From NCBI RefSeq assembly GCF_034480035.2, contig NZ_CP118753.2, positions 1,645,426 through 1,709,425 on the forward strand: a stretch of 64,000 nt of DNA, read 5' to 3'. The notes under the pieces were generated by a model. The model had not been told where the DNA came from. It did no database searches and saw only the letters and a list, made by a program, of their open reading frames with translations. Position numbers and translations under genes: made by a program. This DNA is from Methanosphaera sp. ISO3-F5. Lineage in GTDB: Archaea > Methanobacteriota > Methanobacteria > Methanobacteriales > Methanobacteriaceae. Shown piece by piece: positions 376 through 12,300 of this stretch; position 1 is the stretch's first letter, and each line of letters starts with the position of its first letter.

Positions 376-501
376 TTAGTTGTGTTTTGGTTTGTATATT
401 GGTTTTAGTTCGTATATGTGTAAGTAAAACATGATTGGTATCATGATGAATATTGCACTTATTTTTATTATGTTGTTTTTTATTGTGTTTATTATTTTCA
501 T
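376..501 (-). CDS. 41-residue single-pass membrane protein behind a CsoR-like operator
   Basis: A short leftward reading frame (ATG at 501, TAA at 378-376) encodes 41 residues. Residues about 10-30 form one hydrophobic helix (IIKISAIFIMIPIMFYLHIY) with two internal Met and a His, followed by a basic tail ending KPKHN. A GGTGAT ribosome binding site sits at 506-511, four bases before the ATG. Further upstream lie a CsoR-like palindrome (536-549) and a consensus TATA box (571-578), all oriented for this frame. These signals make a real gene likely. I recognise no family. The Met/His content and operator suggest a role in copper or metal stress, but that is inference. The csoR gene lies just upstream on the same strand with its own signals. 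Confidence 0.62.
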   Translation of the reverse strand: MKIINTIKNNIIKISAIFIMIPIMFYLHIYELKPIYKPKHN

Positions 502-535
502 GATTATCACCACGTTATTATAATAATTATACCTG

Positions 536-578
536 TACCCCTATGGGTATAATTGATTATGTCACAATACTATATAAA
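536..578 (-). promoter_or_regulatory. TATA box plus CsoR-type operator for the 41-residue gene
   Basis: On the minus strand TTTATATA (571-578) is an archaeal TATA consensus. TACCCCTATGGGTA (plus strand 536-549) is a 14-bp palindrome with TACCC/GGGTA arms. It lies where transcription would start, about 25 bases past the TATA box, so a bound repressor would block initiation. GC-rich centres with TA ends are typical of CsoR/RcnR-family operators. A CsoR-family gene lies at 630-902. Confidence 0.6.
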
Positions 579-629: not shown

Positions 630-902
630 TTAAATTCTTGAATAATAATCAATTATCCTAGACAAATCCTGGATAGCCTCAGAACTATCACCCTTATCAA
701 TAGCATCCTTAACACAATGATTCATATGCCCCTCCAAGATAATACTACCAACCCTATTCAATGCAGACTTAGCAGCATTAACCTGCATAAGAACATCCTC
801 ACAAGGAACATCCTGCTCAATCATACGATCAATAGCAGCAACCTGACCCTCAATCTTTCTTAAACGTCTATGTAAATTATCAGAATCCATACATTGTTTC
901 AT
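630..902 (-). CDS. csoR: CsoR/RcnR-family (DUF156) copper-type transcriptional repressor
   Basis: A 90-residue all-helical repressor of the CsoR/RcnR/FrmR family. The frame extends to a GTG at 914, but the ATG at 902 is preferred because GTGGTG lies just before it and the protein then starts MKQCMDSDN, as is usual for the family. The family signature NLHRRLRKIEGQ is present. C34, H59 and C63 match the Cu(I)-binding Cys-His-Cys set of CsoR rather than the nickel set of RcnR; H62 and C4 are extra possible ligands. It is the last gene of the leftward egsA-UPF0179-rpiA-csoR run. A CsoR-like palindrome 80 bases beyond its stop suggests it controls the small membrane gene there. The copper assignment rests on these residues only. 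Confidence 0.88.
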   Translation of the reverse strand: MKQCMDSDNLHRRLRKIEGQVAAIDRMIEQDVPCEDVLMQVNAAKSALNRVGSIILEGHMNHCVKDAIDKGDSSEAIQDLSRIIDYYSRI

Positions 903-915
903 AAATAACACCACA

Positions 916-1599
916 CTACTTTTCTATAACTTCATTACCAGAATCCCTACCAACAATAACCTTATCAGCAATACCAGAGAAAATACCATTCTCAAGAACA
1001 CCAGGAATAGTATTTAATTCTATTTCAAGTTCATAAGGATTTTCAATATTATCAAACTTAGTATCTAAAACAAAATTACCATTATCTGTAATAACAGGAC
1101 CATCCTTCTGAATACCCATACGAACTTCAGGCTTACCACCCAACTCCATAACAGCATTCTTAACCAATCTTAAAGATTCAGGAATAATCTCAATAGGTAC
1201 GGGGAATGCACCTAACTTTTCAACAACTTTACTACCATCAACTATGACAACAAATTCATCAGCAGAACTATCCACTAATTTCTCAATGGTATGAGCAGCA
1301 CCTCCACCCTTAATCAAATCAAGATTAGAATCCACTTCATCAGCACCATCAACAGCAATATCAATATCATGCTCATCAAGAGTAGTGATTTTTATACCAG
1401 ACTCCCTTGCCAATAATGTAGACTGGAAAGAAGTAGGTATTCCAAGTATTTCCAATCCCTCATTCTTCACACGTTCACCCAAATATCTTATAAAATGATG
1501 AGTTGTTGAACCAGTACCTAATCCAACAACCTGACCATCCTTAATTAATTCAGATGCTTCTTTACCAACATTTTCTTTCAATATATTACTATCAACCAT
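916..1599 (-). CDS. rpiA: ribose-5-phosphate isomerase A
   Basis: Interconverts ribose 5-phosphate and ribulose 5-phosphate, supplying ribose for nucleotides. Archaeal methanogens use it with the ribulose monophosphate pathway. Motifs seen: [11 protein letters not shown] near the N-terminus (phosphate loop), DGADEVD (catalytic region) and IKGGGAAH. At 227 residues it has the normal family length. A GTG at 1608 is possible, but AGGTGA at 1605-1610 is well placed for the ATG at 1599. It lies between UPF0179 and csoR with almost no spacing, so all are probably one transcript. Confidence 0.95.
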
Positions 1600-1608
1600 T
1601 GTATTCAC

Positions 1609-5233: not shown

Positions 5234-8200
5234 CTAAAAAAAAATAAATAAATTAGTGTAATCAGTTGTTATCGTGGTTTCGAGTGTTGCACTGTTGTTT
5301 GCTGCTGTTATGGTTATTGGTTTTTGTCCTGGTAGTTCAAAGGTAATATTTGCTTGATGGTTCTTGTTTTTGTTTAGTGTGTATGTTACTTTTAGTGTTA
5401 TTGTTTCTCCGATTTCTGGGTTGTTTTTTGTTTCTAGTTTTAGTTGTCCGGTTATTTTTTGTGCTTCTATTGTGTGTAGTTTTTGTGTATTTTCTATGTT
5501 TTCATCTGGTGAGTAGTACCATACTCTTACGTGGTGTGGTCCTATTTCCTGGTTGTTGTAGGTGAATGTTGTTGTATCTTGGTTTATTGTGATGTTTTTG
5601 TATAGTGTTCCATCTGAGTATACCTCAATGTATCCCTTGTTTAGTGGTGTGTTGGTTTTTTGGTCGGTTACGGTTATTGTGAATTGTGTGTTTTCTTCAT
5701 AGATGTAATTTTGGGGTGCGTTTATTGTTATTTTTGTAGGGTGTGTTGTACTTGTTTCTTCACTGACATATGGATTTTCATTTTCGTTTTTGTTGGTGTT
5801 GTTTGCTTGTATTGTATTTTCGGTAACTTCTAGTGTTACGTTTCCATAGAATGTGTTGTTGGTTATTGTGCATGGGTTGAATGTTACTCCTATTTTTCCT
5901 GGACCAAATGAATTATTTCTAATGGTTAGTCCACCGGTGCTTCCTGCTACTTCATATGCATCGTCCTTGTATTGTGTCATGATAAGGTACTTGTTACTGT
6001 TTTCTATGTAATTGTTTTCAACTGTAATATTGTCACCAATTACGCATACACTGTAGCATGTTGCACTTCCTACTTGTAGGTCTCGTCCCATTATCTTGTT
6101 ACCACGTATGGTGATGTTGTTGTTTCCGTATTTGTCGTTTACATCAACGTTGTATGTGGTTGCGTATACGAGGTTTCCTATGAATCCGCTTCCTACTACT
6201 GTGCTGTTTTCTAGCAGACAGTTTTGTGATGCTGCAAATACTACTGTACTTACTCCGTTGTTGTCTGTTGTGTTGAAGTATGAGTTTTTGATTGTGACAT
6301 TCTGGCTGTTACGGATACTGGTTGATCCACGACCCCAACCATAACCACTAGTACAATAAGAAGTAATATTATCAAATGTTATATCATGTGCTTCGGTTGT
6401 TACTATCATTGTATTCTCGAATTGTATGTCTGTGATGTTGGTTCCTGAACCTTCACTGGTAATTATGAATGAATAGTCAGGAAGTTCACTGGTTCCTTCA
6501 AGTTTAGGTGTTGAATAGAAACAGAAGAAAGCATCACCTGTAGTGGATAACATATTAACCGGTTTGGTTATGTTAAATGCATATCTTTCATTATCAAACT
6601 TACCATGTACATCAATAGTAGCACCATCCGGCACATTTTCATTCAACAATCCATTGGTTATATACATGTCAAAGTTATCAGGTGTAAGTATGATAGGTTC
6701 TGCAATTCTTATCTGTTTTGAAGCTGCACATCCAAAGTCATTGTAACATTCATATTCAACACTAACTTCCATAGTTTTTGCTATTGTAGAATCCACAGGT
6801 ATTGATATTGTTCCATCAGCATCAGTAATATACGTTTGTAAATTCCCATCAATTTGTACTTGAACATATTGACCAGATATACTGTTTCCTTCTACATCTT
6901 TAAGTAATACTGTGATATTTTCTTCTTCATTCAATGGTATGTAATCTGGTGAAATAACTAACTGACTACTTACAGGTTCCCGGTTATTGATATAAGTATT
7001 TTCATCATCTGTTGTGTCTTTTATCACCTCTTCTATAGTGCCTTCACCTAGGATTGCATTGTATTTGAATGTGTTGTTTATGTTGTCCACTTCTATGACG
7101 TATGCGTAGTCTTCGGTTAGTAGGAAGTTGTTTTCTACCAGTACATTTTTGGAGTTGTCTAATTTTAGTGCTTTTCCATTGGTTACAGCGATTGTATTAT
7201 TTGTTATAATGTTTCCTTCATTCATCCAATAAGTATATATTCCTACTGTAGTTGGTTTAATGTAATCAACACTATACTCTGAACCGTTTGAATTTCCATC
7301 TACATAGATTGCGTTGTTGTCCATGGTCGTGTTTATTCCGATTGCTCCTATACCCATAGGATAGTTACCAGTAAGGGTCATGTTGTTTCCTATAATTTGA
7401 GTGTTTACTCCACCATACAGTTCAAATGCATATGATTGACGAGCATCAGCTATAACAGTATTGTTAATATACCTGTTGTTTTCCATGGAACTAATACTTG
7501 CAACGTATTCTCCTCCACCATAACTGAAGTCCAGTATCAGACATCCATAAGCAACATCAGGATTACCTTGATCAGTCTGTTCAAAACCTGCAGAAACGTT
7601 AATCCTATTATCGTAGATGTAATTGTTTTTCATACCATTTCCTTCAATATTCACACCAGCAGAATAGTACACTGACTTGACTGTTATGTTGTTGTTGTAT
7701 ATCCTGTTTTGTGAAGCTCTAACGACAAAACCATAAGTGTACTGTGTACCAGTTACTATAACAGTATTGTTGTAGATGTTAAGATTATTTCCACGGACAT
7801 ATACTCCGTAAAGACTTCTGTGTGTTCCATCACTTAAAATACAGGATTCGGTAATGTTAAAACGGTTATTTCTCAGGGTTGAATAAAATCCGGTAATCCA
7901 CACACCAATTCCTTTTGGAAGATCGGTGTCCATCCATGCTACCTGGCTGCTTGGAAGGTAGGCATTGATTGTACAGTTTTCAACAACACTGTTTTGTCCA
8001 CCAATATATAATGGAGAACTGGTTCCTTTGCTGGTGATGTTAGCATTTATTATACAATTTCTAGCAGTAGTGTATTCTCCACTAAGATTTAAAGCAATGG
8101 CTGGGGTGTTACCTGAAGCATTAAGGTTGATTGTACAGTTTTCAACAGTAGTATTTGCTCCAACAGTAAGTACATTTACACTAGAGTCACGTTGAGAATC

Positions 8201-8803
8201 AACATTAATGGTAACATGATTTAAACCAACCATGCTGGGAATATTCACGTAATCTCCGGTATAATCCTTATCATAATTCAGTACACTATCTTCCAACTCC
8301 AGTGATTTCAGATTACCTTTACTTAATTGTAGGTTTATATTATTAATTGTTCCAGATATTGTTAGAGTGTCATTTCTGTATTTGTTATTGTAGAAGTTGT
8401 TTATTGCTAATTGTTTGGCCTCTGCCGGCAGGTATGTGAAGTTTACCGTGTAATTGTTTCCAGGTACAAAATATGCTTGTTTTAGTGTGACCTTTCCTGC
8501 ACTGTTTATAGATATATAATCGTTGTAATTGTCTTCTGTTATTGTAGTTACATTATTATTAGCATTACCCTTAACCGTGATATTCTTCTTTTTAATACCT
8601 TTTGTGTTTATACATTCTTCTTTTTCCTTATTAATGTCTTTATCATTTTTTTCAATCAATACATTATTATCATAGGAATATGTGTCCTCTATTGTATGTT
8701 GAGTATCCTGTCGGGTAATGTTAGTATCATCGGCAGCTGCACATACAGACAATGAGAATAATAGTATTGCAAGAAATATGATGAAATATTTAATTTTATT
8801 CAT
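5234..8803 (-). CDS. adhesin-like surface protein, C-terminally truncated
   Basis: A 1189-residue exported protein. The signal peptide is MNKIKYFIIFLAILLF plus SLSVCAAADD, with a GGTGG ribosome binding site at 8812-8816. Long right-handed parallel beta-helix stretches of Asn/Thr-rich turns follow (residues about 100-1000, NosD/pectate-lyase-like). Then comes a module with GRGSTSIRNS and GNLVYATTYN shared with the gene at 15017-20728, and finally a beta-sandwich block (about 1030-1180). The paralogue continues from this block into nine Ig-like repeats. Here the match stops after TTITTDY and the frame ends at once with TNLFIFF and a TAG. The Ig repeats that probably hold such proteins to the wall are missing, so it may be shed, non-functional or a recombination donor. 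Confidence 0.8.
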   Translation of the reverse strand: MNKIKYFIIFLAILLFSLSVCAAADDTNITRQDTQHTIEDTYSYDNNVLIEKNDKDINKEKEECINTKGIKKKNITVKGNANNNVTTITEDNYNDYISINSAGKVTLKQAYFVPGNNYTVNFTYLPAEAKQLAINNFYNNKYRNDTLTISGTINNINLQLSKGNLKSLELEDSVLNYDKDYTGDYVNIPSMVGLNHVTINVDSQRDSSVNVLTVGANTTVENCTINLNASGNTPAIALNLSGEYTTARNCIINANITSKGTSSPLYIGGQNSVVENCTINAYLPSSQVAWMDTDLPKGIGVWITGFYSTLRNNRFNITESCILSDGTHRSLYGVYVRGNNLNIYNNTVIVTGTQYTYGFVVRASQNRIYNNNITVKSVYYSAGVNIEGNGMKNNYIYDNRINVSAGFEQTDQGNPDVAYGCLILDFSYGGGEYVASISSMENNRYINNTVIADARQSYAFELYGGVNTQIIGNNMTLTGNYPMGIGAIGINTTMDNNAIYVDGNSNGSEYSVDYIKPTTVGIYTYWMNEGNIITNNTIAVTNGKALKLDNSKNVLVENNFLLTEDYAYVIEVDNINNTFKYNAILGEGTIEEVIKDTTDDENTYINNREPVSSQLVISPDYIPLNEEENITVLLKDVEGNSISGQYVQVQIDGNLQTYITDADGTISIPVDSTIAKTMEVSVEYECYNDFGCAASKQIRIAEPIILTPDNFDMYITNGLLNENVPDGATIDVHGKFDNERYAFNITKPVNMLSTTGDAFFCFYSTPKLEGTSELPDYSFIITSEGSGTNITDIQFENTMIVTTEAHDITFDNITSYCTSGYGWGRGSTSIRNSQNVTIKNSYFNTTDNNGVSTVVFAASQNCLLENSTVVGSGFIGNLVYATTYNVDVNDKYGNNNITIRGNKIMGRDLQVGSATCYSVCVIGDNITVENNYIENSNKYLIMTQYKDDAYEVAGSTGGLTIRNNSFGPGKIGVTFNPCTITNNTFYGNVTLEVTENTIQANNTNKNENENPYVSEETSTTHPTKITINAPQNYIYEENTQFTITVTDQKTNTPLNKGYIEVYSDGTLYKNITINQDTTTFTYNNQEIGPHHVRVWYYSPDENIENTQKLHTIEAQKITGQLKLETKNNPEIGETITLKVTYTLNKNKNHQANITFELPGQKPITITAANNSATLETTITTDYTNLFIFF

Positions 8804-9302
8804 ATTACCGTTCCACCTGGTCTTTATACATATTATAACTTACCAACCATAAAAAAAAAATGATAATAAAAAAAAATTCCTTATTAAAAAAAATGGGAAA
8901 ATAATAACATCTAAAAAAAAAATATGATATAATTACCTATTTTATAATAAAATTTTTTGAATTTAATTTAGTTATCATTAAATCATCATATGGTTAATAA
9001 ATTAATATTTTAACTAAATTTATTAGAGAAAAATAATTATATCACTCCAAATTTAATTTTTATTGAATATTTGTTTATAAAAAGAGTTGTCATTATTTCT
9101 ATTTTCTTATAGATTAAAAAAATACTAATTAGATTATATATCTTAGTTTGATATTATACTAATTAATATATCTCTTTTTACAATAAACATATATTTGAAA
9201 ATTATCATATATACAAATATTGATTTTAAAACAAGCATTTTTAAATAAATTTGAAAAAAATAAAAGAATGTTATAATTTAGAATCAATTAAAAATTTTAA
9301 TA
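8804..9302. other. divergent promoter region between two adhesin genes
   Basis: About 500 bases of very A/T-rich DNA between divergent adhesin genes. It contains the leftward gene's GGTGG site and several TATA-like stretches in both directions. No reading frame of note, RNA gene or clear palindrome is seen. Confidence 0.5.
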
Positions 9303-9323
9303 ATGATTTATATGCAGATAAAC

Positions 9324-12300
9324 ATGAAAAAAATCATTTTATTCACTGCTTTACTGATTACATTACTATCAGTAGCCAGTGCAGCAGACATCCATGATAC
9401 AACAGTATCACAGGATGTAACAGCCAGCACAGTATCACATGATACACAACAAACTGATACAAATGTACTCACAAAAAGCAACACACAAAATGATAATATA
9501 AAAAAAGTTCAAAACGTAACAAAAGTTAAGAAAGAAACAAAGAACGAAGAAAATACCAGAGGCACAATACATAACATAAACAATACTAACTTTGACGAAT
9601 ATGTAACAGATTCTGGTTTAACCTCACTAGTAAATGGAAATGATACTCTAAACTTTACAAGTAATGTAACACGTACTTTACACAATTATACAATAAACAA
9701 ACCAATAAATATTACAGGAAATGGATTTACTCTAGATTTAAATACAATATATGGTTATAATCTTCCATCTCTACAGCAAACAAACATTGAATTTAACATT
9801 GGCGCAAATAATTCAAATATTACAAATCTAAAATTCCATAACACACAAGTATTCACGACAAGTGCATCAAACATTACATTCGACAACATTAATGTAACAG
9901 TAGATCAAGGTGTTGGAATGTATACAGGATATTTTGCATTACGCAATGGGGTAATAAATGTAACAGTTAAAAACAGTTACTTCCATGCAGTAAACAATAC
10001 AGGATGTAGTGCAATAGCAATTACTATGGGTGAAAATTGTACCATAGACCACAACATTATAATCGGAGAAGGAATAGTTGGAAACCTCATATACTTAAAC
10101 ACATTTAATGTGGGACCTGTTACAAATAATATAACTCAAAACAAAAACAATGTCATAAGCAGTAATACATTAACTGGACCAGAAACAGCTGATTCAAGAT
10201 GTTTTGCTATTACAGTTGGAGGACCACACAACCATATAATAAACAACACTATTAACTATAATGGAAAAGGAATAACTGGAAACTGGGCAGGAACCTATGA
10301 TCCAGCAACCAACACAACCAATGACTACTACAACGACACATATCTTGGAAACGGCTACATAAACAACACATTAAACAATGGTGCAGAATTCAGTGGAGCA
10401 CAAGGTAGTTTAGTGGCAGGAAACAACTTCACAGGAAAAGTAACTATAGCAAAAGAATCAAAAGTAAAAGACAACAGATTCTACAATACAACAACAATAA
10501 ACCAAAACTCCAACATAACAGACAACCAATTCAACGCTACAGCAACAATAAAAAAATACATAAATGTAAAAAACAGCATATTTAACAGCACTGCAACAAT
10601 AGGCGAATACTCAAACGTGACAAACAACACATTCAAATCAACAGTAACATTAAACAATAACATAAACTTCAAAAATAACAACGCAGAAAACTCAACAGTA
10701 TATGTAATTGGTGCAAATTGTGATTTATGTGGAAATAGGATTAATACATTAGTAATTTCTGCATACCCAGCTTATGTTTGTAGAGATAATATTTTTACTA
10801 ATTATCCAACAGATCCAAATATTTCATGGTACATTCATGGTTCAAGAAATAGTAATTTAAATAAAAACTATCTACGTTCAGTAAAAACCTCAAGTGTAAC
10901 AGAGGGAATAGAGTATGAAGAAGTTGATATTGATGATGAAGAAACTTTTTTAAAATACTTCCGTTTCCAAGAACAAGGTGAGGCATGGTTACCTCTTGGT
11001 ACATACATTACTGGAAATACAAGATTTAAATTAGGTTATTTCCCAGAAAAAGGTAAATTATTTTATTTAATGCTTCCAGTTTATGGTCAATATATGGACA
11101 GTCACTTTTCAATAGTTGGGAAGAATAATCTTACATTAAATAACGTTGGTCTTTATGTTGTTGGAACACATTGTTCCATATCCAATTTAACTTTAGTTTA
11201 TAACTTAGAAGATGAAACTGACAATACACAACCAGTTTCTTGCCAAGATTTTGGTATGTCTGGTTGTTATATTGAGTTTGATAATTTAAATATTACATTA
11301 AACTGTGAATATGGAACAATTAACACAGTCTTTGGAACAACTAAATCAAATAATTTGGGTAATATAATTATTCAAAATTCAATAATTAATGTTAAATGTC
11401 CAGCTAGCTCATTTGCAGTAATAAGTAACAATGCAGAGAATACTAAAATATTAAACAATATAATTAATATTGAAGAAAAGTATAATGTTGGTGATAATCC
11501 TTATATTATAGGAATATATGGGGATGTAAATTCTACTTTAAACCACAATTCCAATAATGTAACTTGTATTAATAATATAATTAATATGAATGGTGAATCC
11601 ACACTCATAGCAATAAAAATAGGGGGTAACACCAATACAATTACAAACAACAACATAACAGTAACCACAACTGGAACAGCAACCGGAGTAGAACTCACAG
11701 GAAACGACAACACAGTAACAGACAACTACATAATAGCAAACGACAAAAAAGGAGACGATGCAGTAACTGACAATGGTGAAAACAACATTGTAGAAAACAA
11801 CAGTCCATACAGTACATCACTTAAAGTAATTGCACCAGCAACTGCAAACATCAATGAAGCAACACCAATAACAATCCTACTCAAAGACAACACAGGCAAA
11901 CTAATACCTGAACAAGAAGTAAAACTATCAGTAGGAGAAAACCAGACAGAAACAGTAACCACAGACGAAGATGGTATCGCAGTATACAATTTGACATCAA
12001 CTACCAGTGGAGAATTAAACCTAACAATAACCTATGAGGCACAAGGATTATACACTGGATCCAACACTACAGTAACAATCAATGTTAACGAAGACAAAGA
12101 TGCAATCATAGAAGAACTTAACAATACAATAAAAGGAAACGAAGAAACTATTGAAGCATTAAATGGAACTGTTAATAACCAAAGCACTTTAATCAAGGAA
12201 CTAAACAGTACAGTTGATAGTTTAAATGATACTGTTCAAACTCAAAATAATACAATTAATGAACAAAACAGTACTATAAACCGGTTAAATGATACTGTTA

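Follow-up and report, generated by a model that had tools for sequence, protein, structure and literature searches.

The unannotated 41-residue membrane protein encoded at 376-501 of the 64,000-nt stretch of Methanosphaera sp. ISO3-F5 DNA analysed here (the window) is probably controlled by the CsoR-family repressor encoded at 630-902, which would act at a 20-bp operator at 530-549; on comparative evidence, we put the probability of this reading at roughly 0.8. The features on which the argument draws are as follows.

376-501, minus strand: single-pass membrane microprotein MKIINTIKNNIIKISAIFIMIPIMFYLHIYELKPIYKPKHN, 41 aa, supported by alignment, genome searches, purifying selection and a predicted helix
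506-511, minus strand: Shine-Dalgarno sequence GGTGAT, separated by 4 nt from the ATG; a GGTGA/GGAGG-type site is found here in most homologues
530-549, minus strand: candidate CsoR operator TACCCATAGGGGTACAGGTA, one mismatch from the genus consensus TACCYATAGGGGTATAGGTA, overlapping the predicted transcription start
536-549, no strand assigned: core palindrome TACCC-CTAT-GGGTA, read from the sequence
571-578, minus strand: TATA box TTTATATA, read from the sequence, starting 29 nt before the operator
630-902, minus strand: csoR, a 90-aa CsoR/RcnR-family repressor (PF02583) with C4, C34, H59, C63 and D79
916-1608, minus strand: presumably a ribose-5-phosphate isomerase-like ORF, directly upstream of csoR on the same strand
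5234-8803, minus strand: large repeat protein of 1189 aa, taken from its signal-like start and repeat composition to be secreted and adhesin-like

The isomerase-like ORF and csoR stand in the same order in further genomes of the genus (e.g. loci L133, L138, L141, L142, L144 and L137).

The operator and its association with csoR

The TATA box, palindrome, GGTGAT motif, 41-codon frame and csoR all lie in the sequence where a preliminary description of this DNA had placed them, on the minus strand. That description took the 14-bp core TACCCCTATGGGTA (positions 536-549) as the operator; the location holds, but the element is longer. What is conserved around the six copies in the genome is a 20-bp sequence, TACC(C/T)ATAGGGGTATAGGTA, present in the window as an inverted repeat that runs from 549 to 530 on the minus strand and contains the 14-mer. 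In its symmetric form, the operator is an 8-4-8 inverted repeat, TACCTATA-GGGG-TATAGGTA.

Comparison across genomes shows this operator to be a recurrent element. There are six exact copies of the 14-mer in the 2.68 Mb genome and none of the reversed pattern used as a control; with up to one mismatch, the 14-mer is found once in the window, against 0.00 expected from shuffled windows. The 20-mer is present in 19 of the 20 genomes of the genus, at 1-10 copies each, with zero control matches in those 19. Across 64 genus sites, TAC, the inner GTA and GGG are each retained in 64/64. Recurrent matches of the form TATCC(A/G)TAG(T/A)G... (L060, L065, L068), which are probably coding-sequence hits and have no TATA box, were set aside.

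The promoter geometry is likewise recurrent. Among 81 distinct sites in the genus, the TATA box starts 32 nt upstream of the operator in 46 and 30 nt upstream in 11 (57/81 together), and the distance at the window site is 29 nt. Archaeal transcripts begin about 25 nt past the TATA box, which places the predicted start site within the operator, as would be expected if the repressor blocks initiation.

Allowing up to two mismatches, the operator was found in 33 of 138 genomes of the family, comprising the 19 of the genus and 14 others. All 14 of the latter have csoR, and of the 16 operator sites outside the genus, 15 are no more than about 280 bp away from it (operator coordinates compared with the csoR search). 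Conversely, among the 40 family genomes in which no csoR was detected, only G005 carries the operator, and its assembly is 72% complete. In several other genera, csoR precedes a P1B-type ATPase gene, with the operator before csoR or before the ATPase gene. The one genome of the genus with csoR and without the operator is G016 (locus L138, G016:C28); its CsoR is divergent, with a one-residue insertion ahead of the first metal-binding Cys.

The association extends beyond archaea. The closest relative of the window CsoR in the plasmid collection (54% identity, same N-terminus) is encoded on a Roseburia plasmid. Its gene is followed by one for a CPC/HN P1B ATPase, and the promoter of the ATPase gene contains the identical 14-mer together with a second TACCCCCATAGGTA. 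This csoR-P1B ATPase module (L199) lies at 8970-9460 of plasmid NZ_CP135163.1 of Roseburia sp. 831b, a pig-gut clostridium, and the match suggests that the module was transferred between gut Clostridia and gut methanogens. Additionally, a full-length CsoR relative, 56.7% identical to the window protein, is present in the phage collection at MT836347.1:10374-10643, a record labelled 'Bacteriophage sp.' from human faeces.

Characterised CsoR sites consist of a TAC/GTA dyad with G-tracts and N9 spacing, an example being the operator ATATACCCCTNAGGGGTATAT of Streptomyces lividans, whose regulator belongs to the same CsoR/RcnR family (DUF156, PF02583; PMC3902906). The window operator agrees with them in its TAC/GTA inverted repeat flanking G/C tracts. 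It differs in that its core is TAC-N8-GTA, one base off the published spacing, which counts somewhat against our reading, and in the additional outer TACC/GGTA repeat that extends it to 20 bp. A literature search returned no verbatim match to the operator 20-mers.

Could the palindrome instead belong to another regulator, its nearness to csoR being coincidental? The pairing of CsoR with this operator is drawn from comparison, and one of the genes found behind operators, feoA, is often controlled by regulators of the DtxR/Fur type. Nevertheless, this alternative is highly improbable, since in several genera as well as in Roseburia the operator is found tightly together with csoR and next to it, and since its TACC...GGTA pattern with a G-tract is typical of CsoR. 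The match between regulator and site is about as strong as comparative evidence gets, and it is very likely that CsoR is the cognate regulator.

The gene downstream of the operator

The microprotein frame begins with an ATG at 501 and its stop codon ends at 376 on the minus strand, giving 41 codons. A family alignment of 16 distinct homologues of 37-46 aa yields a consensus with an amphipathic N-terminus and one membrane helix followed by FYLxxYExxPIYxPK, in which Y26, Y30, P34 and Y36 are invariant and F25 and E31 nearly so. In a profile search, homologues were recovered in 15 of the 20 genus genomes and in 0 of the 118 other genomes of the family, so that frame and operator are conserved together in relatives, the check that the preliminary description had proposed. 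No match was obtained in G001, G005, G013 and G016, and G017 has a fragment at a contig end. Given these four genomes and the operator-less csoR of G016, the microprotein may be dispensable, or assemblies may be incomplete.

All 16 distinct genes lie 28-582 nt downstream of an operator, and 12 of them also lie just downstream of csoR. In the remaining four (G003, G004a, G007 and G011), csoR is on a different contig or lies about 1 Mb from the gene, and the operator is kept, which favours regulation, rather than adjacency to csoR, as the conserved link.

Several measures bear on whether the frame is translated. Variability is lowest at second codon positions (0.24, against 0.45 and 0.50), pN/pS is lowest in the true frame (0.57, against 0.90 and 1.43), and the G006/G015 pair has a dN of 0.037 and a dS of 0.54. 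Judged by these comparisons, the 41-codon frame is a genuine gene under purifying selection. The alternative, that the operator-driven transcript is a small RNA or untranslated leader in which the frame is incidental, draws on the shortness and AT-richness of the gene and on other operators behind which there is either no conserved frame or a leader several hundred bases long. It can be given very little weight in view of the codon-position pattern, the frame dependence of pN/pS, a protein motif conserved in 15 genomes with its Shine-Dalgarno sequence and ATG kept, and a search of Rfam, which returned no RNA match at the locus. Family comparison bears out the earlier proposal of a CsoR-type operator where transcription of a small membrane protein gene begins, and shows that gene to be real and conserved.

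The AlphaFold model consists of one helix (residues 2-32), for which Foldseek returned no match, and the protein falls in no Pfam or NCBIfam family; none of the 16 members matched the DUF1490/DUF6110 domain in Pfam. A second small-protein family, found behind other operators, shows a weak likeness to the microprotein, with an hhalign probability of 90%, a type of score that hydrophobic helices inflate. A search with this second family recovered a G009 member from outside its building set, directly behind an operator.

The regulon and the metal sensed

The preliminary description had named the neighbouring csoR as the regulator of this one gene. Its control of the gene is very likely by the comparative evidence, and csoR is indeed the obvious candidate, but the gene accounts for only one of up to about ten sites in a regulon that genome comparison shows to include several classes of target. 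A P1B ATPase with CPC...HN motifs stands behind operators at L066, L105, L121, L127 and L129. Other operators precede a gene for a DUF6110/DUF1490-type protein; at L100 and L197, the loci at which the next gene was read, that gene encodes a P1B ATPase carrying YSCA and HN motifs. Orphan FeoA, without adjacent feoB in the inspected loci, is found behind operators in ten genus genomes. Further targets are a DnaJ-domain protein, several other single-helix proteins, and a soluble protein of 40-44 aa followed by one of 80-99 aa. The former (MTYMxKK...YTYIKPxxIYTTKK) was seen at L055, L061, L073 and L111, and the latter (..LLTEITCI..) follows it at L055 and L073; the 43-aa protein of L111 had no match in Pfam or NCBIfam, and the 80-aa protein of L055 no convincing one. 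DUF6110 proteins are typically encoded with P1B6 ATPases, the HN motif marks P1B6, and CPC with HN is termed 'P1B6-like', as in the zinc exporter CtpC (PMC9374683).

In the genome of the window itself, the window gene, feoA, a DUF6110-ATPase pair and several small genes lie behind operators. The leaders between operator and DUF6110 gene at L197 (this genome), L100 and L122 are about 460-480 nt, far longer than those of other targets, and are possibly structured or coding. Two CPC/HN P1B ATPase paralogues of this genome do not lie behind the operator, which is a point against our reading. Two P1B ATPase paralogues at L193 and L194 (G000:C1:885003 and 833261), 42-43% identical to ATPase-1 of the regulon, have in front of them an inverted repeat of another kind, AGTAATAC(N)GTATTAC, which seems to be present in tandem and suggests that another regulator acts on them.

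The window CsoR, encoded by a single-copy gene, belongs clearly to its family (PF02583, 99.5 bits against a cut-off of 22.8, E=1.4e-28). Its ligands C34, H59 and C63 (X-Y-Z, Cys-His-Cys) are invariant in 24 distinct sequences of the family, as is the N-terminal Cys4. At the second shell, position A, before Cys34, is Pro in 21/24 and never Tyr, position B is Asp in 22/24, and position 'C' of the window protein is Ala76. Under the published scheme, in which the second-shell Tyr is tied to Cu(I) allostery and the metal sensed cannot be predicted from the ligand pattern (PMC4235346), the protein fully matches neither the Cu-CsoR nor the InrS fingerprint.

It had been proposed that a copper-sensing CsoR controls a copper-handling microprotein whose Met/His helix binds copper. 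The C-H-C ligand set is that of Cu-type CsoR, the nearest PDB relative is a CsoR (4m1p, E=1.8e-17), and the best NCBIfam match is RicR, at a score below the RicR cut-off. Neither part of the proposal fares well, and as a whole it is improbable. Copper is disfavoured because the second-shell Tyr paired with Glu/Asp in Cu(I) sensors is absent, with Pro in its place, and because the targets include P1B6 or P1B6-like ATPases and FeoA (besides DUF6110 and small proteins) rather than the copA/copZ genes of a copper regulon. Furthermore, the Met and His residues of the microprotein are unconserved, position 28 being H, Y, R or N and the helix Mets varying among members. A divalent metal, for instance iron or zinc, therefore appears a likelier effector than copper.

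In a sharper form of our reading, the metal sensed by the CsoR-family protein would be Fe(II), Zn(II) or some other divalent ion, and its management would fall to the regulon through P1B6 ATPases, FeoA, microproteins and DUF6110 as a scaffold. The targets point in this direction: FeoA in ten genomes, DUF6110 with a P1B6 ATPase in others, the reported company of DUF6110 proteins and P1B6 ATPases, and the export of zinc by P1B6-like CtpC (PMC9374683). On the other side, the metal is deduced indirectly, the ligand pattern being unpredictive of it (PMC4235346), and induction of FeoA alongside efflux is not self-explanatory; this form is tentative, falling somewhat short of an even chance. A ferrosome reading (FezB, P1B6) was also considered.

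Proposed mechanism, related systems and significance

By our reading, we infer that, without inducer, a CsoR tetramer would sit on the operator over the start of the TATA promoter and block initiation. Metal binding at Cys34-His59-Cys63, perhaps with Cys4, would release CsoR from the DNA, and the microprotein, which consists of one membrane helix and a short YExxPIYxPK tail, would then be made. As one of the small membrane proteins sharing the operator with P1B6-type ATPases, a DUF6110 (PacL-like) protein and orphan FeoA, it would most likely serve as an accessory or tuning subunit of a membrane metal-stress response. That it assists metal transport is our best guess, held at slightly less than even odds. 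A wider proposal is more doubtful. In it, a CsoR-family repressor that gut Clostridia also possess would have been rewired in Methanosphaera to govern a multi-site regulon, probably for a metal other than copper (Fe or Zn), and the single-helix microproteins under its control would form a genus-specific superfamily whose members serve P1B6 ATPases and Feo-type transport as subunits or brakes.

Known CsoR/RcnR systems share with this one the placement of csoR beside a P1B ATPase, as in the related genera and Roseburia. They differ from it in that the operator here lies at the start site of an archaeal TATA promoter, the second-shell Tyr is absent, and genus-specific microproteins and FeoA are part of the regulon. 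InrS, the cyanobacterial Ni sensor of the same family (PMC4235346), has the C-H-C core and the Pro before the first Cys in common with the window CsoR, which, unlike InrS, has Ala76 rather than Glu at 'C', an N-terminal Cys rather than His, and targets that are not NrsD-like. The PacL1-CtpC efflux platforms of Mycobacterium (PMC9374683) likewise combine P1B6/P1B6-like ATPases bearing the HN motif with small single-helix membrane partners, and a DUF6110/DUF1490 protein occurs within the present regulon. In contrast to PacL, the 41-aa protein has no match to these domains, no Glu/Ala repeats and no metal-binding tail.

Our literature search turned up no paper describing a CsoR regulon in Methanosphaera and no archaeal CsoR regulon. 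The regulator family is known; what is new is an archaeal multi-site regulon with genus-specific microproteins. Its operator and promoter geometry are defined, its targets across 19 genomes form a list that can be tested, and through it a microprotein family that had lacked annotation comes under probable metal control. With the Cu-sensor Tyr missing and P1B6 ATPases and FeoA among the targets, the system offers a natural case for studying what sets metal specificity in this repressor family, and the regulon provides an entry point to the management of transition metals in gut methanogens, whose energy metabolism depends on such metals.
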